Below, in pieces: positions 3,953-17,492 of a stretch of 64,000 bases of DNA (its first letter is position 1; each line of letters starts with the position of its first letter). This DNA comes from Actinoalloteichus hoggarensis (GTDB lineage: Bacteria > Actinomycetota > Actinomycetes > Mycobacteriales > Pseudonocardiaceae): assembly GCF_002234535.1 (NCBI RefSeq), contig NZ_CP022521.1:5146001-5210000 (forward strand). Direction: 5' to 3'. A model generated the notes under the pieces. That model saw nothing but the letters and a program-made list of their open reading frames with translations, was not told where the DNA came from and made no database searches. A program made the translations under genes and the position numbers.

Positions 3953-4795
3953 TCAGCCGCCGAAGCGCCGGGTGAGTCTGCGCTCCAACAGCCCGACCAG
4001 TGAGTAGAGCAGCCAGCCGATCAGGCACAGCAGGATCAGACAGATCATCACGACCTGGACGTCGTCGTTGTCCTGCGCCTGCTTCTCCAGGTAGCCCAGC
4101 CCCGCCGTGGCGCCGATGAACTCGCCGATGACGGCCGCGGTGACGGCCTGAAGCACGCCGACCCGCAGACCCGCGGCGATCGCGGGGAGGCTGTAGGGCA
4201 GCTCGATGGTCAGCAGACGTCGGGCGCCGCCGATGTCGAGCACGTCGGCGAGGTCGTGCAGGGACTCCGACATGCCCCTGAGCCTGCTCACCATCGTGAT
4301 CAGGATCGGATAGAAGGTCACCAGGGCGATCAGGGTGATCTTCGATCCGATGCCCAGTCCGAGCCACAGCACGATCAGCGGCGCGATGGAGATCTTCGGC
4401 GTCACCTGGACCACGACGATGACGGGCATGAGCAGCCGCTCCACCCACGCCACCCGCACGAAGAGCACGGCGATCAGGACGCCGATCACGCCGCCGATGA
4501 CCACGCCCTGCAGCACCTCGGCCAGCGTCTCCAGCAGGTGGATCGCCAGGCCGCCGGTCTGCCACAGCGAGACGGTCCTCGTCAGCAGCGCGCCGGGCGT
4601 CGGAAGCATGTGATCCGGGACGCCGGAGAACGCGGCGATCAGCCACCACAGCGCGACGCCGCCCGCCAGGGAGAGGGCGCCGACGAGTATCGGCGCGGGT
4701 CCGCCGTGACGATCGGGGCGGGGGCTGCCGCCGCGGCGCGACCCGCCCGCCTGTCTCGTCACCCGGTCGTCGATCCGGTCACTTGTCGATGTCAT
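3953..4795 (-). CDS. ABC importer permease (SsuC/TauC/NMT1-associated type), second copy
   Basis: 280 residues. A cytoplasmic Arg/Gly-rich N-terminus of about 33 residues is followed by six predicted membrane helices. The BPD_transp_1 coupling loop (LADVLDIGGARRLLTIELPYSLPAIAAG) carries the EAA-like segment that contacts the ATPase. Its start overlaps the end of the binding-protein gene by 17 bp, so it is the last gene of a four-gene importer operon: ATPase, permease, binding protein, permease. Two different permease subunits suggest a heterodimeric channel. Context next to orotate-type genes suggests a pyrimidine or related ring compound as substrate (inference). Confidence 0.9.
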   Translation of the reverse strand: MTSTSDRIDDRVTRQAGGSRRGGSPRPDRHGGPAPILVGALSLAGGVALWWLIAAFSGVPDHMLPTPGALLTRTVSLWQTGGLAIHLLETLAEVLQGVVIGGVIGVLIAVLFVRVAWVERLLMPVIVVVQVTPKISIAPLIVLWLGLGIGSKITLIALVTFYPILITMVSRLRGMSESLHDLADVLDIGGARRLLTIELPYSLPAIAAGLRVGVLQAVTAAVIGEFIGATAGLGYLEKQAQDNDDVQVVMICLILLCLIGWLLYSLVGLLERRLTRRFGG

Positions 4796-5819
4796 CTGCG
4801 TTCCTCACCAGGTCGGCGGCGTCGAAGGGCTCCTCGATCAGCCCGAACTCCGCCTGCGAGTCGATGGCGGCCTGCCATCGGTCCAGATCGCCGTGACCGA
4901 AGCCGTGCTCCCTCGTCTCGTCGGACTGCCAGAGCTCGGCGACGAAGACCTCCCGGAGGACGTCGGCGATCTCGGCGTTCTGTCCCTCGAAGGTCGGCGC
5001 GTACTTCTCGATCGCCATGTCGACGGTCTCGTCGACGTTGTCGATGGTGTGCTGGATTCCGGCGTCCAGTGCCCGGGCGAAACCGCCGGCCACCCGCGGT
5101 CGCAGCGCGGCCGTCTCCGGCCCGGTGATCAGGACGTTGCCGAAGGAGGGCAGGTATTCGTCGCTGAGGATCTGCCCGACGTCCACGCCCGCCGTCCGCA
5201 GCGCGAAGTAGCGGAGTCGCGAGAAGACGATCGCGTCGACCTCGCCGTTCTGCAACGCCTGGACGATCGCCCCGGTCCCGATGGTGCGCAGCTCCACGTC
5301 GTCGAGGGTCAGGCCCTCATGAGCGAGCATCGCCTGCAACTGCGCGTAGTTGGGGCTGCCCAGGTCGGTGACCGCCACCGAGCGGCCCGCCAGGTCGGCG
5401 GGCGAGGAGATCCCGCCGGCGTTGTCGAACAGCACGGCGCCGATGCCGCGCTGATAGGTGGTGTGCACGACCGAGGTGCGGACGCCGTTCGCACGGGCCG
5501 TGATCACCGAGTCGGCGTTGGGGAAGCCGAAGTCGACGTTGCCCGCCGCGACGTTCTGCACGATGTCCGCGCCGTTGGCGTAGCTGAACTCGACGTCCAG
5601 CCCCTCGTCGGCGAAGTAGCCCTGTTCGACAGCCGCGTACAACGGGGCGTAGTAGGGCACGGCCGAGCCGTCGATCTGGATCGTGACGGCGGTCGTCTCG
5701 CCCCCGCCCGCCTGCGCGGACTCCCGCATCATCGCGGCGGGGCTGCACGCGCCGACCGTCACCACGGCGGCGACGCCGAGCGCGGCGGCGACGCGGGCGC
5801 CGAGTCGAGGAAGGTGCAT
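4779..5819 (-). CDS. ABC importer substrate-binding lipoprotein, NMT1/THI5 (SsuA/TauA) type
   Basis: 346 residues from the ATG at 5819, chosen because GAAAGGA lies 9-15 bp upstream and a lipoprotein signal (hydrophobic stretch ending VGAC, lipobox Cys about residue 25) follows directly; the longer open frame to 5891 overlaps the upstream permease. The mature part begins VTIQIDGSAVPYYAPLYAA, then EQGYFADEGLDVEF and a GAD/GNVDFGF segment, as in NMT1-type periplasmic-like binding proteins. Such proteins bind pyrimidine precursors, sulfonates, nitrate or nucleobase-like rings. The ligand is unproven; the divergent orotate-type operon makes a pyrimidine plausible. Confidence 0.9.
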   Translation of the reverse strand: MHLPRLGARVAAALGVAAVVTVGACSPAAMMRESAQAGGGETTAVTIQIDGSAVPYYAPLYAAVEQGYFADEGLDVEFSYANGADIVQNVAAGNVDFGFPNADSVITARANGVRTSVVHTTYQRGIGAVLFDNAGGISSPADLAGRSVAVTDLGSPNYAQLQAMLAHEGLTLDDVELRTIGTGAIVQALQNGEVDAIVFSRLRYFALRTAGVDVGQILSDEYLPSFGNVLITGPETAALRPRVAGGFARALDAGIQHTIDNVDETVDMAIEKYAPTFEGQNAEIADVLREVFVAELWQSDETREHGFGHGDLDRWQAAIDSQAEFGLIEEPFDAADLVRNADDIDK

Positions 5820-5860
5820 CGAACGGGTCCTTTCGGCAGATCGCGAGGAGGACGGTGCGG

Positions 5861-6703
5861 TCATCGCCATGGCAGCGCCCGCTTCTCCCACGCCGCCACC
5901 AGGGCGAATCCGGTGAGTCCGACGATCACGGTGAGGACCACCGCCGCGAGGAGCTGAGGGGTGTCGTAGGTGCTGCGGCCCTGCACCATCAGGAAGCCCA
6001 GACCCTGCTGCGCCGAGATGTACTCGGCGAGGAAGGCGCCGGTCATGGCGTCGACGACGGCGATCCGCGCCCCGGAGAACAGGGCGGGCAGGGCGGTGGG
6101 GAGCTGCACGACGGTGAAGAACCGCCGGGGTCCGAGATCGAGCACCCGACCGAGGGCACGCTGCTCGTCGGTGACCTCACCGAGTCCCAGCATCATCGCG
6201 ATCATCATCGGGAAGAAGGCCAGCAGCACGATCAGGGTGAGCTGCGAGCCCAGCCCCAGGCCGAACCAGAGCACCAGCAGCGGCGCCAAGGCGATCTTGG
6301 GCGCGGCCTGCAGGATCACCACGTAGGGCGCGAGCACCATCCGCACGGCGCGGAAGGAGCTGAGCAGCCAGCCCAGCAGTGAGCCGATGACCACGCCCGC
6401 CGTCAGGCCGATCACGATGTTGCGCAGGGTGTAGAGGAGGTGCGGCCACAGCTCCCCGCTCGTCATCAGGCCGCCGATCGAGGCCAGGACGGCGCCCGGG
6501 CCGGGCAGCAGATAGGCGGGCACGTCGGCGAGGGTGACGTAGAGCTGCCAGATGAGCAGCACGGCGGCGAGATACGCGAGGCCGACGACCACTCGGCGCG
6601 CCGGGGACCGCCTGGGCGGCGGACCGGGTCGTCGGACTCGCGTCCTGCGTCGTGGAGCCGCGGCGCGACTCCGCGCCGCGGTGTGCTGTCGGACCTCCGT
6701 CAT
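5861..6703 (-). CDS. ABC importer permease (SsuC/TauC/NMT1-associated type), first copy
   Basis: 280 residues. A basic N-terminus of about 36 residues precedes six predicted helices. The coupling loop (LGRVLDLGPRRFFTVVQLPTALPALFSG) matches the BPD_transp_1 family. Its ATG overlaps the ATPase stop (ATGA, 6700-6703), and the binding-protein gene starts 41 bp after its stop. It is a paralogue of the permease at 3953-4795: both share APLLVLWFGLGLGS-like and PAIA/PALFSG segments, but they differ in the termini. Having two unlike permeases is less common than a homodimer in this family. Confidence 0.9.
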   Translation of the reverse strand: MTEVRQHTAARSRAAAPRRRTRVRRPGPPPRRSPARRVVVGLAYLAAVLLIWQLYVTLADVPAYLLPGPGAVLASIGGLMTSGELWPHLLYTLRNIVIGLTAGVVIGSLLGWLLSSFRAVRMVLAPYVVILQAAPKIALAPLLVLWFGLGLGSQLTLIVLLAFFPMMIAMMLGLGEVTDEQRALGRVLDLGPRRFFTVVQLPTALPALFSGARIAVVDAMTGAFLAEYISAQQGLGFLMVQGRSTYDTPQLLAAVVLTVIVGLTGFALVAAWEKRALPWR

Positions 6704-7497
6704 CGCAGCTCACCTCTGAGCATCCCGACGAAGCGGGCGAACTCCGGCAGCTCACGGGTCGCCGGGGAGCGGTCGCGGTCGAGGGGGACCTGGTGCACCG
6801 CCTGGAGCCTGCCCGGCCGAGGCGACATCACCACGACGCGGTCGGCGAGGTAGGCGGCCTCCTCCACGCTGTGCGTGACGAACACGATCGTCTTCCTGGT
6901 CTCCTCCCAGATCCGCAGGATGTCGTCGTGCAGGCGGTCGCGGGTGATGGCGTCGAGCGCCCCGAAGGGCTCGTCCATCAGCAGGATCCTCGGGTCGTAG
7001 GCCAGGGCCCGCACGATGGCGACCCGCTGGCGCATGCCGCCGGACAGCTCCTTGGGGAAGGACTTCGCGAAGCCGCTGAGCCCGACCAGCTCCAGCAGGG
7101 TGGCGACGCGCTCGTCGGCCCGGTCGAGCCGTTCCTTCTGCACCTCTATGCCGAGCCGCACGTTGCCCTCGACGGTGCGCCACGGCAGCAGCGCGGGCTC
7201 CTGGAACACGAAGCCGATGTCGCGGCCGGGTCGGGGCGGCCGTTCCCAGGCGATCTCACCGTCGTAGTCGTCGTCGAGCCCGGCGATCATGCGCAGCAGC
7301 GTGGACTTGCCGCAGCCCGACGGGCCGATGATCGCGATGATCTCGCCCTCGTCGACGGTGAGGTTGACGTCGTCGAGCGCGTGCACGGTCTCGCCGTGCA
7401 CGCTCGTGTAGTCCTTGCTGACGCCCCGCACCGCCAGCAGGCCACGCCCGGTGTCGGGCGACGAGGACGGTGGACTCGCAGAGGTGTCGTGCTTCAC
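6700..7497 (-). CDS. ABC importer ATPase (SsuB/TauB type)
   Basis: 265 residues. Walker A GPSGCGKST (58-66), Q-loop FVFQEPALLPW (about 96-106), signature LSGGMRQR (151-158), Walker B ILLMDEPFGALD (171-182) and H-loop H209 are all intact. The VTHSVEEAAYLADRVVVMSPRPG segment is typical of the nitrate/sulfonate/NMT1 group. It is the first gene of the importer operon and overlaps the permease start by four bases. It faces the phosphorylase-first operon across a 304-bp shared regulatory region, the layout expected of uptake and use genes under one regulator. Confidence 0.94.
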   Translation of the reverse strand: MKHDTSASPPSSSPDTGRGLLAVRGVSKDYTSVHGETVHALDDVNLTVDEGEIIAIIGPSGCGKSTLLRMIAGLDDDYDGEIAWERPPRPGRDIGFVFQEPALLPWRTVEGNVRLGIEVQKERLDRADERVATLLELVGLSGFAKSFPKELSGGMRQRVAIVRALAYDPRILLMDEPFGALDAITRDRLHDDILRIWEETRKTIVFVTHSVEEAAYLADRVVVMSPRPGRLQAVHQVPLDRDRSPATRELPEFARFVGMLRGELR

Positions 7498-7801
7498 GGT
7501 GCAGCTCCAGGGGATCGTCGCAAAACCTGGTCACGAAATCGCGTTCGGTGCTGAATGAGCGTCGACGATAGGCATTGCTTCCGCGTTACGGAAGTGTTTG
7601 CCCGAAATTCGACGACACGAGCTCCACCGCAGCCTCACCCGGCATGCCCGGGGTCTCGTTTCGGTATCAGACCTGATCAGAGCGGAATGTATGCGATCCG
7701 TCACGGAGAAGAACGAGGTACTGGATGTTGACGAGCGGCCCGAAGGACCCGCAGACTGTGCGATCTGAACAATGCTCTTCCACCTCACGGAAGGATGCCT
7801 G
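7498..7801. promoter_or_regulatory. Divergent control region between importer and orotate-type operon
   Basis: This 304-bp stretch separates two operons that read away from each other. It contains inverted repeats at 7578-7594 (CTTCCG, 5-nt spacer, CGGAAG) and 7697-7707 (TCCG, TCA, CGGA). The phosphorylase ribosome-binding site GGAAGGA is at 7789-7795. It is more AT-rich than the flanking genes. The IclR regulator inside the plus operon is the natural candidate to bind here. No unambiguous -35/-10 pair could be fixed by eye. Confidence 0.55.
7578..7594. promoter_or_regulatory. Inverted repeat, candidate IclR operator
   Basis: CTTCCG-CGTTA-CGGAAG, 6-bp perfect arms with a 5-nt spacer. It sits 81 bp upstream of the ATPase start, inside the divergent control region. 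IclR-family proteins bind short palindromes that often contain TTCC/GGAA half-sites. A related but shorter repeat (TCCG-TCA-CGGA) lies at 7697-7707. Assignment to the IclR gene at 9651-10454 is inference. Confidence 0.4.
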
Positions 7802-8590
7802 ATGGCTCGGAGCGCCGCCGATCCCTGGCTGAACGGCAGGCCCCCGCACCTCCCGATCCCCGAGGGCGAGCGACTGCCCGCGGTCTGTCTGCTGCCGGGC
7901 GACCCGGCCCGGGTGGACCGCGCCGGTGGGGTGCTCGACGACTTCCGGCTGCTCGGTCAGAACCGGGAGTTCCGGCTCGGCGTCGGCCACGTCGGCGGCG
8001 TCGGGGTCGCGGTGTGCTCGACCGGCATCGGCGGGCCCTCGACCGAGATCGCCCTCGTCGAACTCGCCAGGCTGGGCGTCGGCACCGTCATCCGGACCGG
8101 CGGCATGGGGGCTCTCGCCGCGCACATCGCGCCCGGCGACCTGTGCGTGGTGACCACGGCGGCCCGTGAAGGCGGCGCCGCCGCGTGTTACGCCGACCCC
8201 GCCACGCCCGCGCGGTCCTCGACCGACGTGAGCACGGCGCTCCGCACGGCCGCCGCCTCGAACGGGGAGGCCCCGCACGACATCGGCGTGCTCTCCTGCG
8301 ACTCGTACTACGTCGGGGAGGGCAGGCCGGTCCCCGGCCTGGAGGCTCGGGCCGCCGCCCGGCTGGCCGCGATCGAGTCGCGTGCGGTGGACGGCATGGA
8401 CATGGAGTGCGAGACGGTGCTCGTCGTCGGCGCCGCCCTCGGGCTCCGCGTCGGCGGCATCCTCGTGGCCCACGCCTCCCGAGCCACCGACCAGTGGCTG
8501 GAGGACTACGAGCCCGCGCAGCTGCGCATGCTGCGCGTCGCCGCGACCGCGGCGGCCGAACTCGGCCGAGCCTCCACGGAGACCCGGTGA
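7802..8590 (+). CDS. PNP/UDP-family nucleoside phosphorylase (uridine phosphorylase-like)
   Basis: 262 residues from ATG at 7802, chosen for the GGAAGGA Shine-Dalgarno at 7789-7795; an in-frame ATG at 7772 lacks one. Family motifs are visible: GDPAR (33-37), the phosphate-binding STGIGGPST (73-81), RTGGMG (98-103) and the ribose-contacting DMECE (200-204). These enzymes split a nucleoside with phosphate into base and ribose 1-phosphate. The closest pattern is uridine phosphorylase. First gene of an eight-gene plus-strand operon; the next gene starts by GTGA overlap. In an orotate-type cluster the substrate could be uridine or, more speculatively, orotidine. Confidence 0.88.
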   Translation: MARSAADPWLNGRPPHLPIPEGERLPAVCLLPGDPARVDRAGGVLDDFRLLGQNREFRLGVGHVGGVGVAVCSTGIGGPSTEIALVELARLGVGTVIRTGGMGALAAHIAPGDLCVVTTAAREGGAAACYADPATPARSSTDVSTALRTAAASNGEAPHDIGVLSCDSYYVGEGRPVPGLEARAAARLAAIESRAVDGMDMECETVLVVGAALGLRVGGILVAHASRATDQWLEDYEPAQLRMLRVAATAAAELGRASTETR

Positions 8591-9654
8591 GCGCCGCCGC
8601 GCACGCCCCGTCCGATGCCCACGACCTCGCCGGGCCACGCGGCGACGCGCGCGATCGGTTCTTCGCCGACGCCGCCGCGTACGACGTCGACATGTCGGTG
8701 ACCCTCGGCTCGCTGCGGCTACGCAACCCGGTCATGCCCGCGTCGGGCTGCTTCGGACCGGAACTGGCACCGCTGGTCCCGATGCGGGAGGTGGGGGCGA
8801 GCGTCACCAAGACGGTCTTCTCGGGGCGGCGCGGCGGCAACCCGGCCCATCGACTCACCGAGACCAGCACCGGGATGATCAACAGCGTCGGCATCCCCAG
8901 CCTGGGCACCCCGACGTTCCTGCGTGACGTGCTCCCCCGGTACCGCGCGCTCGGCGCTCCGGTCGTCGTCAGCCTCGGCGGTCTGACCGTCGCGGAGTAC
9001 CTGACGGTGGCCGAGGAGCTGACCGGCGCGGAGCTCGCGGAGACGGAGCCCGGAGGGACGGAGATCGCCGGGACGGCGACTACGGAGCCGCCGCGCCGGT
9101 TCGAGGCCGTCGAGGTCAACGTCTCCTGCCCGAACCTGGAGGGCGGCGGCCTGGAGATCGGGACCGATCCGGCGGCGGTCGCCGAGGTGGTCGCCGGGGT
9201 CGCGGCCCGCGTCGACGTGCCCGTGCTGGTGAAGCTGACCCCGATGGTGTCCTCGATCGAGGAGGTGGCCCATGCCGCGGCGGAGGCGGGTGCGGCCGGA
9301 CTGACCGTCGCGAACTCGTTCCCCGGCATGGTCCTGGACCGCGACACCCGGCGCCCCGTGCTCGGAAACCGCGTCGGCGGCGTGTCCGGGCCCGCGGTGA
9401 AGCCGCTCGCCCTCCGCCTCGCCTGGACGGCGGCGCGGGCGGTGGACATCCCGGTCATCGGCTGCGGCGGCATCGAGACCGCCGATGACGCGCTCGACTT
9501 CCTCGCGGCGGGCGCCGCCGCCGTCCAGATCGGCACCGCGCACTTCACGAAGCCCTACATCATGGTGGAGATCATCCGTGAGCTCGCCGCCATGACCAGG
9601 GCGGCGGGCGAGACACGGCTCACCGACTACGTCCAAGGACTGGGGCGCAGATGA
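8587..9654 (+). CDS. pyrD: Dihydroorotate dehydrogenase, class 1B catalytic subunit
   Basis: 355 residues from a GTG that overlaps the phosphorylase stop (GTGA). FMN-dependent TIM-barrel enzyme. Visible are NPVMPASG (47-54), TK at 74-75, the active-site loop NVSCPN (178-183) with catalytic-type C181, VKLTPM, and the FMN-phosphate segment GCGGIETADDALDF. A low-complexity insertion of about 25 residues (about 146-171, Glu/Ala/Thr-rich) precedes the active-site loop. Class 1B enzymes pair with PyrK and exchange electrons with NAD; a PyrK gene is present four genes on. Because that couple is reversible, the enzyme could reduce orotate to dihydroorotate in a degradative role. Confidence 0.88.
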   Translation: MSAAAHAPSDAHDLAGPRGDARDRFFADAAAYDVDMSVTLGSLRLRNPVMPASGCFGPELAPLVPMREVGASVTKTVFSGRRGGNPAHRLTETSTGMINSVGIPSLGTPTFLRDVLPRYRALGAPVVVSLGGLTVAEYLTVAEELTGAELAETEPGGTEIAGTATTEPPRRFEAVEVNVSCPNLEGGGLEIGTDPAAVAEVVAGVAARVDVPVLVKLTPMVSSIEEVAHAAAEAGAAGLTVANSFPGMVLDRDTRRPVLGNRVGGVSGPAVKPLALRLAWTAARAVDIPVIGCGGIETADDALDFLAAGAAAVQIGTAHFTKPYIMVEIIRELAAMTRAAGETRLTDYVQGLGRR

Positions 9655-10454
9655 CCGCCGACAAACCCATGCAGGTCGTCGTGAGAGCACTCGACGTGCT
9701 CACGTCACTCGCGGAATCGGATCAGGGCAGGACCCTCCAAGACCTGCACGAGGAGCTGAACATCCCGCTGGGCAGCCTGCACCGGCTGCTCGCGACCCTG
9801 CTGGACCGGTACTACGTCAGCCGATCACCCGTGAACAAGCGGTACTTCCTCGGCCCGTCCGCCCGGAAGCTGGGCGGCTTCGCCACCAGCGGCGGCAGCA
9901 GTCTGATCGCGCCGCCGCCCGCGCTGGCCGCGGCGGCCGCGGAGAGCGGCGAGACCGTCTTCGCCACGGAGATGATCGGGCGGGAACCGGTGTGCGTCGC
10001 CCTGGTGGAGGCCCGTCACCCGCTCCGGCTGTTCGTCCGCATCGGGCAGGAGATGCCGCTGCACGCGGCGGCGGCGAGCCGGTCGATCCTCGCCTTCCTG
10101 CCGGAGGACGTCGTCCGGCCCTTACTGGAGTCGACCACGCTGACGGGCTTCACCACCGACACCCCGCGCACCGTCGACGACGTGATGGCGCATCTGAAGA
10201 CGGTGCGCGCCCAGGGCTACGACGTCTGCTCCGACGAGCTGGACCGGAACGTGTGGGCGGTGGCCGCCCCGGTGATCGCCGCCGATCAGACGGTCACGTC
10301 CAGCGTCACCCTGGCGGCGGCGTCCTCCCGGATGACCAGTCCGCTGGCCCGGACCCGCGCCATCGAGATCACCCTGCGTACGGCCAGGGAACTGTCGCTC
10401 GGCCTCGGCTGGTCGGACGACGAGTCACCGGTCATGGAGAGAGGACGGCCATGA
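9651..10454 (+). CDS. IclR-family transcriptional regulator
   Basis: 267 residues, starting by ATGA overlap with pyrD. N-terminal winged helix-turn-helix (about 8-70; LQDLHEELNIPLGSLHRLLATL is the recognition part), then the IclR ligand-binding domain (about 85-255) with VRIGQEMPLHAAAASRSILAFLP and GYDVCSDELDRNVWAVAAPV, both typical of the family. IclR proteins commonly control catabolic operons in response to a pathway metabolite. Its place inside the operon suggests feedback on its own operon and the divergent importer. The effector is unknown. Confidence 0.93.
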   Translation: MTADKPMQVVVRALDVLTSLAESDQGRTLQDLHEELNIPLGSLHRLLATLLDRYYVSRSPVNKRYFLGPSARKLGGFATSGGSSLIAPPPALAAAAAESGETVFATEMIGREPVCVALVEARHPLRLFVRIGQEMPLHAAAASRSILAFLPEDVVRPLLESTTLTGFTTDTPRTVDDVMAHLKTVRAQGYDVCSDELDRNVWAVAAPVIAADQTVTSSVTLAAASSRMTSPLARTRAIEITLRTARELSLGLGWSDDESPVMERGRP

Positions 10455-11020
10455 GCACACCGACGACGGAGGCGCCCGCCCGCGCCCGCATGGGGCGCGA
10501 CGGCCCGCGTGACTCGACCGGGCTCGACCTGATGGAACTTCGCGCCGATCTGCTCGCCACCTCCGTCACTCCGGGCGACACCCCGGAGAAGACCCTGGCA
10601 CGCACCCTCGACGATCCCGGCTGGGTGGTCCGGCCGTCGCTGCTGCGGCGCGCCGCCGAGGTGCTGGCCCGCGAGCTGCCCCGTTCGGTCGACCGCCTCA
10701 TCGCGCCGCGGCCCGCGGACACCGCGCTGATCACGGCCGTCTCGCTGCACACCGGGCTTCCCTTCGCGGTGCTGGGCGCCGAGGTGCAGACCGAGCCCGG
10801 CACGTCGGCGGGCGACGGCTCCACGACCGAGTCCCCCGAGGGCTCGTCGACGCCCCCCTCCGACGACCCGCCCGTCGTGCTCCTCGGAGAGGTGCACGGG
10901 CTGGAGACCGTCGCGGTGGTCGGGGCCGTCCCGTTCGAGACGCCCGCGCTGGAGCGGTGGATCGCCGATCGACGACTCGCCGTGGCACGCCGGTCGATCC
11001 TGTCGACCGAGCTGAGCTGA
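10451..11020 (+). CDS. Degenerate phosphoribosyltransferase-like protein, first of a tandem pair
   Basis: 189 residues, ATGA overlap with the IclR gene. The order of elements resembles a type I phosphoribosyltransferase such as orotate phosphoribosyltransferase: an N-terminal helical part, then IAPRPADTALITAVSLHTGLPFAVLG (about 78-103), then a hydrophobic strand. Where the PRPP loop (usually VEDVVTTG-like) should be, it has VVLLGEVHGLETVAVVG, so the acidic pair and Thr-Thr-Gly are missing. It probably does not bind PRPP in the normal way. A Ser/Pro/Glu-rich insertion lies between the two halves. It may be a ligand sensor or a partner of the next protein. The family call is tentative. Confidence 0.55.
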   Translation: MSTPTTEAPARARMGRDGPRDSTGLDLMELRADLLATSVTPGDTPEKTLARTLDDPGWVVRPSLLRRAAEVLARELPRSVDRLIAPRPADTALITAVSLHTGLPFAVLGAEVQTEPGTSAGDGSTTESPEGSSTPPSDDPPVVLLGEVHGLETVAVVGAVPFETPALERWIADRRLAVARRSILSTELS

Positions 11021-11080
11021 CCACGAGAACCACCCGTAGCGCGATCGCCCCGCCGATCGCGCCGCACGAGGGAGAGAACC

Positions 11081-11527
11081 ATGAGCAGTCCGACCCCCCG
11101 AGCCGACGTCGTGGACGCGGCACGCGAACTGATCGACCTCGGCGAGGAGCGGGCCGGCGCCACGCTGGACCTCTCCCGATCGCCCGCGGCGGCCGAACGA
11201 CTGGGCCGGATCGCGGCCGACGAACTCCGCGGCCACGCCGTGGATCTCGTCGTCGCCTGGGACGACGCTCGCGATGCCGTGCTGAGCCACATCGCGGCGC
11301 GGGAACTCGGCGTGGCCCGGGTGACGGTCTACGAGGATCTCGGCCAGCTGATCGTCGCGGCGCACCGCCTTCAGGGAGCCCGGCTCGGCGTGGTGTTCAC
11401 GACCGAGGACGATCGACACGACCCGGGCCCGCTCACGGCGATCACCACGAGGAGCGGCGGCGAGGTCGTCGCCACCGTGGTCGTCGTCCGCGCCGAGGAG
11501 CTGGCCGCGGCATCGGAGGAGTCGTGA
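11081..11527 (+). CDS. Degenerate phosphoribosyltransferase-like protein, second of the pair
   Basis: 148 residues; ATG at 11081 follows GGGAGAGA. The 60-bp gap to the previous gene is the largest inside the operon. The fold pattern again suggests a short type I phosphoribosyltransferase: VDLVVAWDDARDAVLSHIAARELG, then a strand LGVVFTTEDD where the PRPP loop would be, then GPLTAITTRSGGEVVATVVVV. The EDD is in roughly the right place but the TTG is absent. It ends by GTGA overlap with the amidohydrolase gene. The neighbouring pair may form a heteromer. Function unknown; catalysis is doubtful. Confidence 0.5.
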   Translation: MSSPTPRADVVDAARELIDLGEERAGATLDLSRSPAAAERLGRIAADELRGHAVDLVVAWDDARDAVLSHIAARELGVARVTVYEDLGQLIVAAHRLQGARLGVVFTTEDDRHDPGPLTAITTRSGGEVVATVVVVRAEELAAASEES

Positions 11528-12864
11528 GCCCCGCGGGCCCGCCCGCCACGACGGCCGTGGCGGACAGGCCGCACGGGCCCGCCCGCGGCCTGGTTCCCCG
11601 CGCCGGGCGCCTCCGCGCCGATCTGGACCACCTCGCGACGCTGACCGAGCCGGGTCCCGGCGTGACCCGACTCGCCTTCACCGAGCTGGAGCGGGCCGCT
11701 CACCGGTACGCCGCCGAGCAGCTCACGGCACTCGGCGCCCGGGTGCGCACCGACGTCGTCGGCAACACGATCGCCGAGCTGCCCGGGTCCGTCCCGGGGG
11801 CGCCCGCGATCGGCAGCGGGTCTCATCTGGACAGCGTCCCCTCGGGCGGGCGCTTCGACGGGATCGCGGGAGTGGTCGCCGCCGTGGAGGTGGCCAGACT
11901 GCTGACCGAGTCGGGCACCGAGCTCCGCCATCCCTATCGCGTGGTGGTCTTCGCCGCCGAGGAGGGCGCCCGCTTCGGGCAGGCCTGCACGGGCAGCCGG
12001 ATCGTCGCCGGACTGACGGACTCGGCCGACCTCGATCGGCTCACCGATCACGAGGGGACCACGATGGCCGAGGCGATGCGCTCGGTCGGGCTGGCCCCGG
12101 ATCGCGCCGCCGAGGCGCGATGGGACCCCGCCGACTGGCTGGCCTTCCTCGAACTGCACATCGAGCAGGGCAGCGTGCTGGAGTCGTCGGATCTTCCGCT
12201 GGGCGTCGTCGACGTGATCTCCGGCAGCACCCGACTGGAGATCACCCTGAGCGGGGTCGCCTCGCACACCGGCGGCACGCCGATGCATCTGCGGTCGGAC
12301 GCGCTCGCCGCGGCCGCCGAGCTCGTCCTGGCGGCGGAGTCGCTGGCCTGGGACTCCCGGCATCACGGCACCAGGGCCACGGTCGGACGGCTGGAGGTGC
12401 TGCCGGGCGCGCTGACGACCATCCCCGGAACGGTCGTGCTCGGCGTGGACGTCCGCGACGTCGACAGCGCCCGTCAGCGGGCCACCGTCCGCGAGTTCCT
12501 CGACCATGCGGCGGGCGTGGCCGTCCGACGCGGCGTCGGCTTCCGGCATCGGCTGCTCGCCGACACCTCCCCCGTCGTGCTGCCCGCGGCGCTGCGCGCG
12601 CAGCTCGTCGGCGCGGCCGAGCGCAGCGGGACGGCCTACCGGGTCATGCCCAGCGGGGCCAGCCACGACAGTCAGATGGTGAACCGCGTCGTGCCCGCCG
12701 GGATGCTCTTCGTGCCGAGCCGGGACGGACTCAGCCACACGCCCGCCGAGTGGACGTCGGTGGAGCAGATCGCCGAGGGCACCGCCGTCCTCGCCGAGGC
12801 CGTCGTCGGCATGGACGCGGCCGGACGTCTCGGGCCCGAATCGGCCGCGGACGGCGGATCATGA
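11524..12864 (+). CDS. M20-family Zn-dependent N-carbamoyl amidohydrolase (ureidosuccinase candidate)
   Basis: 446 residues from GTG 11524, fixed by the GTGA overlap. Allantoate amidohydrolase/N-carbamoyl-amino-acid hydrolase branch of peptidase M20. Visible metal ligands and catalytic residues are H101 in GSHLDSV, D112 in GGRFDGIAG, E146/E147 in FAAEEGARFG and H212 in LHIEQG; SHTGGTPM (lid domain) and SGASHDSQMV near the end are also family hallmarks. The reaction would be hydrolysis of an N-carbamoyl group to amine, ammonia and CO2. Sitting between pyrD/pyrK and dihydroorotase, the obvious substrate is N-carbamoyl-L-aspartate, giving aspartate. Ureidopropionate or allantoate cannot be excluded by sequence alone. 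Confidence 0.85.
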   Translation: MSPAGPPATTAVADRPHGPARGLVPRAGRLRADLDHLATLTEPGPGVTRLAFTELERAAHRYAAEQLTALGARVRTDVVGNTIAELPGSVPGAPAIGSGSHLDSVPSGGRFDGIAGVVAAVEVARLLTESGTELRHPYRVVVFAAEEGARFGQACTGSRIVAGLTDSADLDRLTDHEGTTMAEAMRSVGLAPDRAAEARWDPADWLAFLELHIEQGSVLESSDLPLGVVDVISGSTRLEITLSGVASHTGGTPMHLRSDALAAAAELVLAAESLAWDSRHHGTRATVGRLEVLPGALTTIPGTVVLGVDVRDVDSARQRATVREFLDHAAGVAVRRGVGFRHRLLADTSPVVLPAALRAQLVGAAERSGTAYRVMPSGASHDSQMVNRVVPAGMLFVPSRDGLSHTPAEWTSVEQIAEGTAVLAEAVVGMDAAGRLGPESAADGGS

Positions 12865-13727
12865 CAGGCGCCGAGACTGACCGCCGGGGAATCGCCGACC
12901 GGATCGCGCCGCTGCCGCGGTCGACGCGGCCCACACCGACCTGGGACGAGTGCGCGGTGCTCGTCCACGAGCCGGTCGGCGACACCCAGCACCGCCTCGT
13001 CCTGCACTCGCCGACCATCGCCGAACGCACCAGCGCGGGTCAGTTCGTGATGGTCACGATCCCGGCCGGGGTGGCGGCCAGGTCGGTGCTGCCCAGGCCG
13101 ATGGCAGTGCACCGCAGGCGGGTCGACGACGGCGCCTTCGAGATCGTCTACCGCGCGGGCGGCGCGGGCACGCAGGCGTTGACCGCCGTGCGGCCCGGCG
13201 AGTCGCTGCTGATCACCGGCCCGCTGGGGCAGGGCTTCACCCTGGCGCCCGCGACGGAGCGACTGCTCGTGGTGGGCCGCGGCATCGGCGTCTGCTCGAT
13301 CATGACGGTGGTCGAGGACGCGGTACGCGCGGCGATCGCGGTGACGGGCGTGCTCAGCGCCAGGACCGAGGCGGCGCTGGTCGGGAGCGCGGACCTGGCC
13401 GAGCTGGGTGTCGGCGAGGGGATCGCCGTGACGGACGAGGCGGGCACCAGCGACGTCGACCGCCTGGCGGCGAGACTGCGCACGCTGCTCGACGATCGCC
13501 CCCCGCAGCAGATCATGGTCTGCGGTTCCGACCGGCTCGCCCGCCTCTGCGGCGATCTGGCGAGCCGCTGGGGCGCGACGGTGCAGGTTTCCGTGGAGGC
13601 ACACATGGCCTGCGGCCTGGGCTACTGCCACGGCTGCGCGAGCGCCGCGGCCACGACCGAGGGCGAGAGCCCGCTCGTCTGCGCCGACGGCCCGGTGTTC
13701 GCCCTGACCGGCGGGGGACGGACATGA
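12861..13727 (+). CDS. pyrK: Dihydroorotate dehydrogenase electron-transfer subunit
   Basis: 288 residues, ATGA overlap at both ends. FAD-binding beta-barrel (about 30-120) with RPMAVHRR and GGAGTQAL, NAD-binding domain (about 125-240; VVGRGIGVCSIM), and a C-terminal [2Fe-2S] site with C251, C256, C259 and C274 in the spacing C-x4-C-x2-C-x14-C, ending CADGPVF as in PyrK. It carries electrons between NAD(H) and the FMN of PyrD. Its presence makes the dehydrogenase NAD-linked and reversible, unlike the quinone-linked class 2 enzyme commonly used for actinobacterial pyrimidine biosynthesis. Confidence 0.9.
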   Translation: MTGAETDRRGIADRIAPLPRSTRPTPTWDECAVLVHEPVGDTQHRLVLHSPTIAERTSAGQFVMVTIPAGVAARSVLPRPMAVHRRRVDDGAFEIVYRAGGAGTQALTAVRPGESLLITGPLGQGFTLAPATERLLVVGRGIGVCSIMTVVEDAVRAAIAVTGVLSARTEAALVGSADLAELGVGEGIAVTDEAGTSDVDRLAARLRTLLDDRPPQQIMVCGSDRLARLCGDLASRWGATVQVSVEAHMACGLGYCHGCASAAATTEGESPLVCADGPVFALTGGGRT

Positions 13728-15034
13728 CGAGTCTGCGACTGCGCCGAGTCCGGCCGTTGGGCGGCCCCGCCGTGGACGTCGAGGTCACCTCGGGGTGGAT
13801 CACCGCGATCGGGGAGCCCGCGACGGGCCCGCCGCGGGCGGGCGAGCTCGACGGTCGGGACGCGGTGCTGCTGCCCGGGCTGGTCGACCTGCACACCCAT
13901 CTGCGGGAGCCGGGCGGCGAGGACGCCGAGACCGTCCGCTCCGGCACGGCGTCGGCGGCGGCGGGCGGATTCACCGACGTGTTCGCCATGGCCAACACCA
14001 CGCCGGCCACCGACACGGTCGATCGAGTCCGACGGCTCGCCGACCTCGCCGACGACGCCTCGACGCGGGTGCACCCGGTCGCCGCCGTGACCGTCGGGCT
14101 GGCGGGCGAGCGGCTCACCGATCTGGAGTCGCTGCGGGCCGCGGGCGTGCGGATGTTCTCCGACGACGGTCGCTGCGTCGACGACGCGCGGCTCGTCGAC
14201 CAAGCCCTGCGCCTGCTCGGCCCGGCGGGCGGCGTCCTCGCCCAGCACGCCCAGAGCGAGGCGCTGGCGGGCGGCGGTCAGATCGACGCGAGCATCGCGG
14301 ACGCGCTCGGACTGACGCCGTGGCCGATGGTCGCCGAGGACGTCGTGGTGGCCAGGGACGTCCTGCTGGCGATGGAACACGACGCGCCGCTGCACGTCTG
14401 CCACGTCTCGTCCCCCGGAACCCTCGCGGTCTTGGACTGGGCCCGGCGGCGCGGCGCGCGGGTCACCGCCGAGGTGACGCCCCACCATCTGCTGCTCGAC
14501 ACCGCCGCCTGCGCCACCGGCGACCCCTCGATGAAGGTCAATCCGCCGCTGCGCCCGCCTGCCGTGCCGCCGCTGCTGCGTCAGGCGCTTCGCGACGGCG
14601 TCATCGACGTCGTCGCCACCGATCACGCGCCGCACCCCGAGCACCGCAAGCGGGGCCCGTGGGCGGCGGCGGCATTCGGGCTGACCGGCCTGGAGACGGC
14701 GTTGGCCGTGGTCGCGGAGGTGTTCACCGACGGGTCGACGGTGGACTGGACGGGCGTCGCCCGGGTGCTGTCCCACCGGCCCGCCGTCATCGGCGACATC
14801 GCCGACCGGGCGGGCCGTCCGCCCGCGGTCGGGGAACCGGCGGACTTCTGTCTGGTCGCCTCGGACACGCCGTGGGAGGTGCGGGCCGACGAGACGCGCA
14901 GCGCCTCGCGGAACTCTCCGTTCGTCGGCCGCCGCTTCACGCATCGGGTGGTCTTGACGGTCTGTTCCGGGCGGGTCACCTGGTCGGCCGACGACCCGCA
15001 CCGCGAGGTCTCGGCCGTCCGGAGCGGACGCTAG
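13724..15034 (+). CDS. pyrC: Dihydroorotase, class I
   Basis: 436 residues, ATGA overlap with pyrK. Amidohydrolase TIM barrel. Metal-site and substrate residues are visible: H57 and H59 with R61 in DLHTHLREPG, N91 in ANTTP, the aspartate motif FSDDG (D147/D148), H175, H227 (CHVSS), and D300-H301 in ATDHAPH. FSDDG and HLREPG are dihydroorotase hallmarks; a dihydropyrimidinase would carry a carboxylated lysine instead and would lack the carboxylate-binding Arg. It interconverts dihydroorotate and N-carbamoyl-L-aspartate. Last gene of the operon, followed by a strong hairpin at 15316. Confidence 0.92.
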   Translation: MTSLRLRRVRPLGGPAVDVEVTSGWITAIGEPATGPPRAGELDGRDAVLLPGLVDLHTHLREPGGEDAETVRSGTASAAAGGFTDVFAMANTTPATDTVDRVRRLADLADDASTRVHPVAAVTVGLAGERLTDLESLRAAGVRMFSDDGRCVDDARLVDQALRLLGPAGGVLAQHAQSEALAGGGQIDASIADALGLTPWPMVAEDVVVARDVLLAMEHDAPLHVCHVSSPGTLAVLDWARRRGARVTAEVTPHHLLLDTAACATGDPSMKVNPPLRPPAVPPLLRQALRDGVIDVVATDHAPHPEHRKRGPWAAAAFGLTGLETALAVVAEVFTDGSTVDWTGVARVLSHRPAVIGDIADRAGRPPAVGEPADFCLVASDTPWEVRADETRSASRNSPFVGRRFTHRVVLTVCSGRVTWSADDPHREVSAVRSGR

Positions 15035-15422: not shown

Positions 15423-16853
15423 TCAGGCGCCGAAGACCGGCGGGGCCACCTTGCGGTCGTCGCCGAACACATCGGCGTCCTCCAACAGGAAGTCCGCGCG
15501 CTGGTGCTCCCTGTCCTCCTCCCCGTCACCGCCACGACCGCCCGCGCCGCCACCCGCCACGCCCGCACCGCCTGCCGCACCGCCGGCTGCCGGGCCGAAC
15601 CCGCCGCCGGGCAGTCGGCCTCCCGAGGGACCGGCCGACCCGCCGGGGGCACCGGGCCCGGCTGGACCGCCGGGCCCGAAGCCGCCACCAGGGCCGAAAC
15701 CGCCACCAGGCCCGAAGCCGCCGCTGGGGCCGAAGCCGCCCGGCATCCGTCCGCCGTGGAGACCACCGGGCATCCTGCCGCCAGGGCCGCCTCCCGAACC
15801 GAAGCCCGAACCGCCGCCGGGGCCGAAGCCGCCAGGCCGACCGCCAGGGGGCCCTGCGGTGCCGGGTCCACCCGCTCGTCCGCCACCGGGAACTCCAGGA
15901 CCGCCGAACCCGCCGCCGGGAGCGAACCCGCCTTGACCAGGTTGGGGTCCGCCGGGTGCGTAGCCACCGGGTTGGGGAGTGCCGCCGCCGGGGACGCTCG
16001 GGCTGCCACCGGGTGCGTTCGCATCCGTGCCGATCCCCGGCGCGGGCGCGGGCCCGTATCCGCCGGGCCGTGAGCCGCCGCCGGAACCACCGGGCCCGGA
16101 ACCGGAACCGCCGGAGCCGTCGGAACCGGAACCGGAAGCGCCCCCGGAACCGCCGGGACCATCGGGGCCAGCAGGGAACGCATGGCTCGGCGGCGTCCAG
16201 CCGCCACCCGGCCCGCCGTCGTCCCCACCACCCTCGGGGGAGCCCGGTTTCAGCGACGGATCGCCGCTCGCCAGTGGAGTCGCGATCGCACCACTGCCCA
16301 AGGCGTAGTCGGCGGGTGGCGGCGGAGCGAAGGCCGGGATGCTCCGCAGGCGCGCGTTGGACTCGTCCTGATAGGCGGACATGGCCTGGCGCGCGACCCG
16401 GTTCTCCTCCTCGTAGACGTCGACCCGATCGGAGTGCCCTGTCCATCCGGAGGGAAGGAGATTCTCGAAACCCTCCTTGGCGGGCGGTCCGGCAGCGGGA
16501 TTCTCCGGAGTGTCCCAACGGACGGTCCGATGGGAGAGGCCTTGCACCGAGACGGTGCTGCCGATCGCCAATGCCTGTTCCCTGGCCTGTCGGGCGTACT
16601 CGGCGAGCGGCGTGACCGCGGCCTGCGAGGCGTCGGCGGCCGCACCGACGTGGGCGGCGGCCGCCTTCTTGATCGCCGTGTCGAGGTACTCCCCGATCCG
16701 ATCGAAGTCGGCGGCGACATCGCTCCACTGACGGAACGCCTCGTTGAAATCGCCACCATATCCCTCAGCGTCAAGCTGCGCGCGCAGCTGGTGCGCGGTT
16801 CTGCCCTCGAAGTTCGCGTTCGTCGTCTCCAGACACTCCGTATTTCCATTCAC
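15423..16853 (-). CDS. PPE-like type VII secretion cargo with collagen-like Gly/Pro repeat region
   Basis: 476 residues. The N-terminal helical domain (about 15-180) resembles the PPE/WXG100-like region of actinobacterial ESX substrates (YGGDFNEAFRQWSDVAADFDRIGEYLDTAIKK). From about 190 to 440 it is Gly/Pro-rich with repeated FGPGGG units. The end (HQRADFLLEDADVFG then VAPPVFGA) matches a C-terminal motif common to pseudonocardial PPE-domain proteins. No signal peptide is present, in line with T7SS export. It follows the DUF3558 lipoprotein gene by 12 bp. Secreted or surface role; exact function unknown. Confidence 0.78.
   Translation of the reverse strand: MNGNTECLETTNANFEGRTAHQLRAQLDAEGYGGDFNEAFRQWSDVAADFDRIGEYLDTAIKKAAAAHVGAAADASQAAVTPLAEYARQAREQALAIGSTVSVQGLSHRTVRWDTPENPAAGPPAKEGFENLLPSGWTGHSDRVDVYEEENRVARQAMSAYQDESNARLRSIPAFAPPPPADYALGSGAIATPLASGDPSLKPGSPEGGGDDGGPGGGWTPPSHAFPAGPDGPGGSGGASGSGSDGSGGSGSGPGGSGGGSRPGGYGPAPAPGIGTDANAPGGSPSVPGGGTPQPGGYAPGGPQPGQGGFAPGGGFGGPGVPGGGRAGGPGTAGPPGGRPGGFGPGGGSGFGSGGGPGGRMPGGLHGGRMPGGFGPSGGFGPGGGFGPGGGFGPGGPAGPGAPGGSAGPSGGRLPGGGFGPAAGGAAGGAGVAGGGAGGRGGDGEEDREHQRADFLLEDADVFGDDRKVAPPVFGA
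15663..15745 (-). repeat. Tandem 18-bp coding repeat, GGFGPG units
   Basis: Within the PPE-like gene, units close to CCGAAGCCGCCACCAGGG recur back to back and encode Phe-Gly-Pro-Gly-Gly-Gly steps. They are in frame, differ by single bases, and are coding low complexity rather than a CRISPR-like array. Copy number is likely to vary between strains. Confidence 0.7.
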
Positions 16854-16865
16854 AATTTGCCACCT

Positions 16866-17492
16866 TCACGCTTCCGGAATTCCCGGGACCACAGCCTCAG
16901 CCAAGCGAACTGCTTGTTCGCAGGGATTCGTAGTGTCTGGCTGATCGAGCCCCCGCGACGAACGAAGCGCCAGGTATTGATCATCAGAAAGTCCGATGAA
17001 TATCCCACAGTATCCTTCGCCCCACACGGCGCGCGTCGCCTGCAATGCGGGATGGCCGGCGATCTCGAACTCTCGAAAGTCGGCATACTCATCACGCTGA
17101 CCATAGATGTTCGACAAGCCGCCGCTGATGTCATTTACCTCCACACTGACACCGGCGGTCCGATCTTCTTCGGCAGCCCAGACACAGGCCTCAATGGGTC
17201 CACCGCTGTCCGGCACCCCTTCCGGATCGAAGCCGGCAGCGACGGCGACATCGTGCGGAACCAGCTCACAGATCTCCAGTGTCGTCGCATCCTTCGGATC
17301 GACGACCGAGGGAACCGCCGGGTCATCGCCTGCCGGTGGACTCGGCACACCAGTATCACCTGCGGGTTCGGCTCCAGTCGACGGATGTGCGTCATCGGGC
17401 GATGCCCGCCCGTCGATCTCAGCACTACACGCGGCCGACACCAGGAAAACCAAGGCTGCACCAACCAGGACTCGACCAACGCTGGTCTTCAT
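16866..17492 (-). CDS. DUF3558-family lipoprotein
   Basis: 208 residues. Lipoprotein signal peptide with hydrophobic core and lipobox VSAAC (Cys about residue 22), a Pro/Asp/Ser-rich spacer (about 25-65), then a DUF3558-like domain. That domain holds ICELVPHDVAVAAGF, ACVWAAEEDRTAGVSVEVND, a YADFREFEIAGHPALQ segment and a late CGIFIGL. Paired cysteines suggest disulphides in the exported domain. Middle gene of the cassette, 27 bp after the upstream hypothetical gene and 12 bp before the PPE-like gene. DUF3558 lipoproteins frequently accompany ESX-type cargo in this family of bacteria; their role is not established. Confidence 0.8.
   Translation of the reverse strand: MKTSVGRVLVGAALVFLVSAACSAEIDGRASPDDAHPSTGAEPAGDTGVPSPPAGDDPAVPSVVDPKDATTLEICELVPHDVAVAAGFDPEGVPDSGGPIEACVWAAEEDRTAGVSVEVNDISGGLSNIYGQRDEYADFREFEIAGHPALQATRAVWGEGYCGIFIGLSDDQYLALRSSRGLDQPDTTNPCEQAVRLAEAVVPGIPEA

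Follow-up and report, generated by a model that had tools for sequence, protein, structure and literature searches.

A candidate gene cluster for the uptake and degradation of orotate in Actinoalloteichus hoggarensis and other Pseudonocardiaceae

Introduction

The fermentation of orotate by the anaerobe Clostridium oroticum (Zymobacterium) was defined by enzymology and proceeds through an NAD-linked dihydroorotate dehydrogenase (DHODH), a dihydroorotase and the hydrolysis of N-carbamoyl-aspartate to aspartate. Orotic acid in aerobic bacteria was reportedly the subject of work by Reynolds, Lieberman and Kornberg in 1955; if so, the aerobic degradation of orotate is not in itself new. The DHODH of C. 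oroticum is described in PMC10395836 as a class 1B enzyme. In this work we analysed a window of 64,000 nucleotides from the soil actinomycete Actinoalloteichus hoggarensis (Pseudonocardiaceae; GCF_002234535.1, contig NZ_CP022521.1, positions 5,146,001-5,210,000), in which 12 genes at positions 3953-15034 of the window form two divergent units that probably (about 0.8) constitute one catabolic module for orotate, controlled by an IclR-family regulator. This module would follow the same route with the same enzyme classes as C. oroticum; however, its host is a probable aerobe, and its genes lie in one regulated cluster together with an importer, a nucleoside phosphorylase and proteins resembling orotate phosphoribosyltransferase (OPRT). 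No gene cluster for orotate degradation was found described among the open-licence papers listed.

Two other systems have a comparable design. The degradation of uracil by PydABC/PreTA shows the same succession of a reductase, a cyclic amidohydrolase and a carbamoyl amidohydrolase, but it uses dihydropyrimidine dehydrogenase (DPD) and dihydropyrimidinase, whereas the window cluster carries DHODH and dihydroorotase signatures. The ErtD-ErtE system (ergothioneine/hydantoin-5-propionate) likewise includes a cyclic amidohydrolase and an M20 hydrolase of N-carbamyl acidic amino acids, and ErtE is the second-best match of the window M20 protein (408.9, cut-off 520); its substrate is one carbon longer, and presumably PyrDK is no part of it.

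The gene cluster and its predicted pathway

The cluster is formed by four genes of an ATP-binding cassette (ABC) importer on the minus strand (3953-7497) and eight divergent genes on the plus strand (7772-15034). The original prediction described eight overlapping plus-strand genes with a divergent importer; the positions, number and orientation are as stated, and consecutive genes overlap by 4 bp at six of the seven plus-strand junctions, but a 60-bp gap lies between the genes that we named PRT1 and PRT2. This gene set is not a product of chance, since neighbourhoods of similar composition recur in other genera. According to the proposed scheme, the importer would take up orotate, or orotidine, and the phosphorylase would cleave orotidine to orotate and ribose-1-phosphate. 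PyrD and PyrK, working in reverse with NADH, would reduce orotate to L-dihydroorotate, the dihydroorotase would open this ring to N-carbamoyl-L-aspartate, and the M20 enzyme would strip the carbamoyl group to ammonia and CO2, leaving L-aspartate as a source of carbon and nitrogen. Because the M20 step is in effect irreversible, the reversible steps would be drawn toward breakdown. The support comes from sequence, that is, from the protein families and their key motifs, the recurrence of the cluster, the separate location of pyrimidine biosynthesis and the recurring inverted repeats; we infer the direction of the route, the substrates of the importer, the phosphorylase and the M20 enzyme, the binding of IclR and the roles of PRT1 and PRT2.

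PyrD (8587-9654, plus strand), the predicted catalytic subunit, passes the DHODH equivalog NF005574 (306.6, cut-off 269) and falls slightly below TIGR01037 (268.4, cut-off 270); it retains the Lys and Asn residues and the SCPN stretch of 1ep1, and its top-scoring solved relatives are the DHODH B-type chains 5ue9, 5ksw and 1ep1. PyrK (12861-13727, plus strand), the putative FAD/[2Fe-2S] electron transfer subunit, contains the DHODB Fe-S domain PF10418 (38.6, cut-off 23.9), and its four cysteines align with those of 1ep1. These features agree with the class 1B DHODH pair that had been proposed. The dihydroorotase (13724-15034, plus strand) is a protein of bacterial type I in which the predicted FSDDG and HLREPG motifs are present (as HTHLREPG, followed by MAN, FSDDG and DHAPH), and which scores above TIGR00857 (331.5, cut-off 279.05) and below NF006836 (484.5, cut-off 538). 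In the dihydroorotase from Methanococcus, the residues described as contacting carbamoyl-aspartate are Arg60, Asn89, Asp302 and His306 (PMC12809426), and HxHxR[E/D]PG, M[P/A]N and DHAPH were mapped to them by motif. These substrate-carboxylate motifs are kept in the 17 cluster dihydroorotases examined (6/6 and 11/11), a set that does not include those of genomes G076 and G061. The amidohydrolases of the two main cluster types described below form separate branches, the type 2 proteins being approximately 28% identical to the window enzyme; the type 1 proteins carry FSDDG, which includes the Asp typical of bacterial type I, whereas those of type 2 have VKLFWGY, with Lys instead. Both branches share the three motifs despite this divergence.

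Open reading frame, family and motif scans of the window cluster revealed no PyrB, CarAB or PyrF, and no PyrE bearing its motif. The absence of the first three, on which the degradative proposal was partly built, was thus borne out by family scans, and these genes are located elsewhere in the genome (a single contig of 6,606,717 bases with a completeness rating of 100%). The order pyrR-pyrB-pyrC-orf-carA-carB-pyrF is found at about 2.616-2.625 Mb (L008, L027), a class 2 PyrD maps to 6.233 Mb (L007) and PyrE to 6.416 Mb (L069); PyrR, PyrB, PyrC, CarA, CarB, PyrF, the class 2 PyrD and PyrE all pass at least one NCBIfam cut-off (8/8), and the complete biosynthetic set that the original prediction asked for does therefore exist. 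In the initial set of module-bearing genomes, PyrB was above its cut-off in nine of nine, and a class 2 PyrD passed its own in the eight others as well as in the window genome. Given a full de novo pathway elsewhere, the cluster is very unlikely to serve synthesis.

The importer is composed of a permease of the NitT/TauT/SsuC type (3953-4795), an SsuA-like substrate-binding protein (4779-5891; TIGR01728 with 73.7 bits, below the cut-off of 163.5), a second permease (5861-6703) and an ATPase (6700-7497), all on the minus strand and all kept in G076 and in Actinoalloteichus caeruleus, where the orthologue of the first permease adjoins the same operon. A search for relatives of the window PyrD recovered A. 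caeruleus DSM 43889 as the one informative case, whose 12 genes match those of the window in kind and in order; in the other three loci, L031 among them, no M20 gene of the window type was found.

The first plus-strand gene (7772-8590) encodes a nucleoside phosphorylase that family and motif comparison place near uridine phosphorylase, well below its cut-off (TIGR01718, 147.7 versus 280.3). From the position of the ribosome-binding site, its true start is probably the ATG at 7802. The phosphorylase was seen only in type 1a clusters (three genomes; the contig of G061 begins downstream of its place), and no homologue was found on the fetched stretches of the other cluster types. In uridine phosphorylase, uracil is described as contacting Gln166 and Arg168 (E. 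coli numbering; PMC5238616); mapped by motif, Gln166 is replaced by Glu and Arg168 is kept in the three phosphorylases. Orotidine is a plausible substrate, and this step is the weakest part of the scheme.

The M20 amidohydrolase and the predicted fate of aspartate

The M20 gene (11524-12864, plus strand) encodes a member of the hydantoinase/carbamoylase family that scores above TIGR01879 (377.6, cut-off 204) and NF006771 (418.4, cut-off 399). Its earlier description as a carbamoyl-amidohydrolase agrees with this family; with regard to N-carbamoyl-L-aspartate as its substrate, it is a candidate ureidosuccinase. All the cluster copies compared (8/8 and 11/11) have a Thr in the motif L/I/M-TT-I/V-P/A-G, at a position occupied by Asn in the one other paralogue of the genome and in five of five PDB chains listed, which represent about three distinct enzymes (4pxe and 4pxb are the same enzyme; 5i4m and 5thw are close kin). 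We take this position to be a substrate contact. The Thr marks a subgroup of M20 proteins, short of a proven specificity. In genome G1389, the M20 copy has a stop codon within the matched stretch.

The one other TIGR01879-type M20 gene of the genome (L076:137-2763) adjoins an amidohydrolase-family gene that, by eye, we take to be similar to the formiminoglutamate deiminase HutF; because of this neighbour, it probably serves histidine degradation. Regarding more distant arrangements, one selenium-linked cluster of the YgeY type, L031 (9995-12336, from a Spirochaetaceae metagenome-assembled genome), also places a DHODH-like gene before an M20-superfamily hydrolase, but that hydrolase is a YgeY equivalog (NF009555, 443.6 versus 321) from a different M20 branch than the window protein, and on the stretch scanned its DHODH-like partner reaches none of the listed cut-offs.

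The original prediction placed aspartate at the end of the route. In three of three type 1b clusters, an aspartate ammonia-lyase gene (aspA) lies directly after pyrC; the proteins pass NF008909 (719.1, 718.1 and 721.1, cut-off 510) and are under TIGR00839 (640.8, 637.7 and 641.9, cut-off 681.2). This arrangement points to aspartate as the end product, as had been anticipated, and in these genomes AspA would convert it to fumarate and ammonia.

Recurrence of the cluster in the family

A profile was built from the PyrK proteins of eight clusters and used with a threshold of E≤1e-45. PyrK of the module type was found in 20 of 390 Pseudonocardiaceae genomes, the window genome included, and in nine of 46 genera; 11 proteins outside the profile score 340-457 bits, and all the cluster members 295-478 (eight of these being rows of the profile). 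In a sample of the order, four of 397 genomes matched, all of them Pseudonocardiaceae. At a looser E≤1e-25, 137 of 394 genomes sampled from the class matched, the window with 461 bits and the next best with 126.3. The loci of the 29 best other matches (from 136 other genomes) were inspected; CarB lies within about 1.5 kb in 28 of them, the remaining one (L051) being a truncated locus, and M20 is present in none. For this reason, PyrK elsewhere in the class appears to be mostly biosynthetic. The CarB-linked de novo pyr operons share the PyrD and PyrK families with the window cluster, but their PyrK proteins reach at most 126.3 bits on the cluster profile.

Of the 20 PyrK genes, 18 lie in module-type clusters, one in a mixed form and one in a broken remnant; the search for similar neighbourhoods in other actinomycetes, suggested by the original prediction, was thus productive. 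Type 1a resembles the window (G000, G076, G023 and G061, the last one cut by the contig end inside PRT1). Type 1b (G1306, G1270 and G1310) has the order PyrD-MFS-IclR-PRT1-PRT2-M20-PyrK-PyrC-AspA, where MFS is a major facilitator superfamily carrier. In type 2 (11 genomes: G053, G074, G095, G132, G1331, G1411, G1379, G1381, G1369, G1418 and G1354), IclR is divergent from OCD-amidohydrolase-PrpD-PyrD-MFS-PRT2-M20-PyrK. The MFS carrier of G053, the sole one scanned, is nearest to the aromatic acid/H+ symport family (316.6, below the cut-off of 418.55). Apparent gene splits affect the amidohydrolase and OCD in G1379 and PyrD in G1369. G1354 lacks OCD and PrpD, and consists of the amidohydrolase, PyrD, MFS, PRT2, M20, PyrK and IclR; this bare set needs orotate chemistry alone.

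The additional type 2 genes are located in L023:1701-5466 and in L022, L024, L025, L093-L095 and L099-L101. OCD belongs to the ornithine cyclodeaminase/mu-crystallin family and is under the cut-off for the iminosuccinate reductase BhcD; the fold of the MmgE/PrpD family is described as defined by iminodisuccinate epimerase (PMC12290011). These two proteins might act on the stereochemistry of aspartate or of N-carbamoyl-aspartate.

In the mixed cluster of G1389 (L103:3675-12015), a type 2 amidohydrolase, PrpD, an OPRT-like gene with the phosphoribosyl pyrophosphate (PRPP) motif, M20 and OCD face PyrK-PRT2-PRT1-IclR, and no PyrD was found on the 17-kb stretch; it may be an ancestral or a recombined form. 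G105 has a broken type 2 remnant (L026:8985-11004), where the M20 and PyrK matches are spread over several frames and neither PRT2 nor the upstream genes were found.

PRT1 and PRT2, two relatives of PyrE

Two small genes, counted among the eight in the original prediction but left undescribed, lie between the regulator and M20. PRT1 (10451-11020, plus strand) is a diverged relative of OPRT by weak sequence kinship: it has no Pfam match, its NCBIfam matches to adenine phosphoribosyltransferase (PRT) are weak (E 0.0016 and 0.0072), and it is 41% identical over 87 residues to the OPRT-like protein of the G1389 cluster, which retains EDVVVTG and has pyrE as its best family, under the cut-off (82.5 versus 106.8). 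The structure model of PRT1 has a pLDDT of 35. PRT2 (11081-11527, plus strand) has no match in Pfam or NCBIfam; its profile, searched over 396 genomes of the phylum with scoring limited to 10 candidates in each, yielded three weak matches besides the window (L034, L035 and L033), the last one being a true PyrE (TIGR01367, 190.2 versus 150.25) recovered with 23.2 bits and E 5.7e-5. An AlphaFold model of PRT2 computed from two sequences reached a pLDDT of 80.7 (the other four of the five models, 49.7-74.6), and a Foldseek search with it gave 56 matches at E≤0.001, with PRTs and PurR at the top, so that PRT2 is predicted to have the PRT fold.

PRT2 would thus share its fold with PyrE, and both small proteins a weak sequence kinship with it, but PyrE has the PRPP motif, and neither has it. 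The motif was tested as [DE]D-x(2,3)-[ST]-G, with the genome's own PyrE and PyrR and the L033 PyrE as positive controls; a stricter PROSITE-like pattern was replaced because it missed the genome's own PyrE. The pattern was not found in 19 of 19 PRT2 proteins (8 and 11), nor in six PRT1-like proteins (three, and then L096, L097 and the second L103 copy), in a test that covered all PRT1-like proteins but PRT1 of L098 and G061; the OPRT-like copy of G1389 (L103) is the sole one tested that keeps it. Without the PRPP loop, PRT1 and PRT2 are probably not transferases. PRT2 was found in 19 of the 20 clusters, and in each of the 18 that belong to type 1 or type 2 it lies immediately 5' of M20, an invariant position that suggests a partnership. 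Their likeliest role would be to bind orotate, or a partner enzyme, as a sensor or a subunit.

Candidate regulatory sequences and flanking genes

The regulator (9651-10454, plus strand) belongs to the IclR family (PF01614, PF09339). The divergent gap contains the inverted repeat CTTCCG-N5-CGGAAG (7578-7594), a candidate IclR operator that is also present in G076; A. caeruleus keeps the arms with an altered spacer. It is the sole exact match in the genome, and since a control pattern made by reversal is likewise found once on each strand, its uniqueness is by itself weak evidence. When one mismatch is allowed, the window has two sites against 0.21 expected, and two or more were obtained in one of 100 shuffles. 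A second repeat, CTTCC-N7-GGAAG (7777-7793), overlaps what is probably the ribosome-binding site for the first plus-strand gene; it is present in G076 too and is imperfect, by eye, in A. caeruleus. The 11 type 2 clusters all have TGGAAA-N4-TTTCCA (counted without a shuffle control), in the IclR-side gap in 10 of them and only ahead of PyrD in G1379 (L095). Most of the relatives thus have inverted repeats of an IclR-like kind, and IclR may bind at them.

Outside the module, just downstream, open reading frames on the minus strand at 15423-17492 resemble, by eye, a lipoprotein and a secretion-associated protein that contains a long Gly/Pro-rich tract. Further on, at 18521-23305 (plus strand), there is a helicase-like open reading frame of 1594 residues with the Walker motif GPPGTGKT and a nuclease-like C-terminal region, also recognized by eye.

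Discussion

The separate biosynthetic pathway, the recurring neighbourhoods and AspA support the degradative direction originally proposed, that is, the uptake and breakdown of orotate. Several observations weigh against it. PyrK is below every listed PyrK equivalog cut-off (best 101.5 versus 314). The top match of M20 is the allantoate amidohydrolase subfamily, above its cut-off, and the next is N-carbamyl-L-glutamate amidohydrolase, below it (408.9 versus 520); no named ureidosuccinase appears. With Glu in place of the base-contacting Gln, neither uridine nor orotidine is assured as the substrate of the phosphorylase. AspA is confined to three of the 20 clusters, 10 of the 11 type 2 clusters have OCD- and PrpD-like genes that the scheme does not need, neither repeat pattern was found in the type 1b or mixed clusters, and a genome of the same genus (G043) lacks the module.

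Some of these observations would suit a module of like design for another C6-carboxylated or N-carbamoyl compound, such as 5-carboxymethylhydantoin or a modified pyrimidine nucleoside, in which case orotate would be a poor substrate. The altered base contact of the phosphorylase, the added OCD and PrpD genes, the distinct M20 subgroup and an importer that varies between cluster types agree with this possibility, but the class 1B DHODH and dihydroorotase signatures are ordinary and the minimal set of G1354 requires orotate chemistry only; we thus consider it improbable.

Slightly less probable still is a reductive catabolism of uracil or uridine, in which the phosphorylase would release uracil, PyrDK would take the part of dihydropyrimidine dehydrogenase and the amidohydrolase that of dihydropyrimidinase, with M20 as a beta-ureidopropionase yielding beta-alanine. 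The order of the chemistry would be identical, the cluster has a uridine-phosphorylase-like gene, beta-alanine synthases are among the M20 matches (1r3n, 2v8g, 8c46), and PreA and DPD are homologous to PyrD. Nevertheless, PyrD passes NF005574 and fails PreA (NF006183, 113.2 versus 335), the amidohydrolase fails dihydropyrimidinase (TIGR02033, 118.7 versus 393.25) and dihydroorotate-type motifs are present in all 17 cluster enzymes examined; aspartate ammonia-lyase in three clusters, the OPRT relatives within the operon and the lack of a phosphorylase homologue on the fetched stretches of the other cluster types also argue against it. Finally, a spare biosynthetic or regulatory set, providing an NAD-linked DHODH under limited respiration with M20 draining surplus carbamoyl-aspartate, is very improbable even though PyrDK is used for synthesis in many actinobacteria (28 of the 29 inspected loci adjoin CarB), since the cluster lacks PyrB, CarAB, PyrF and a motif-bearing PyrE, it includes an importer and an IclR regulator, and an M20 hydrolase sharing the operon with PyrC would render synthesis futile.

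Returning to orotate degradation, the chemistry is old; within the open-licence literature, what looks new is at the gene level, namely the gene set, the putative gene for a ureidosuccinase and the partners resembling OPRT. Tentatively, and with considerable doubt, the proposal can be extended to an aerobic orotate-degradation system of Pseudonocardiaceae in which M20 would be the ureidosuccinase gene, and a PRPP-blind pair derived from PyrE would either sense orotate or be an obligate partner to M20 or PyrD, sparing orotate for pyrimidine synthesis.

If the module does degrade orotate, genes would be assigned to a pathway known mainly from the enzymology of an anaerobe, and a candidate gene would be named for the hydrolysis of N-carbamoyl-L-aspartate. 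The OPRT derivatives devoid of the PRPP motif would pose the puzzle of what binds orotate that is not destined for nucleotide, and the cluster would illustrate how the synthesis and the breakdown of shared intermediates may run in parallel in one cell.

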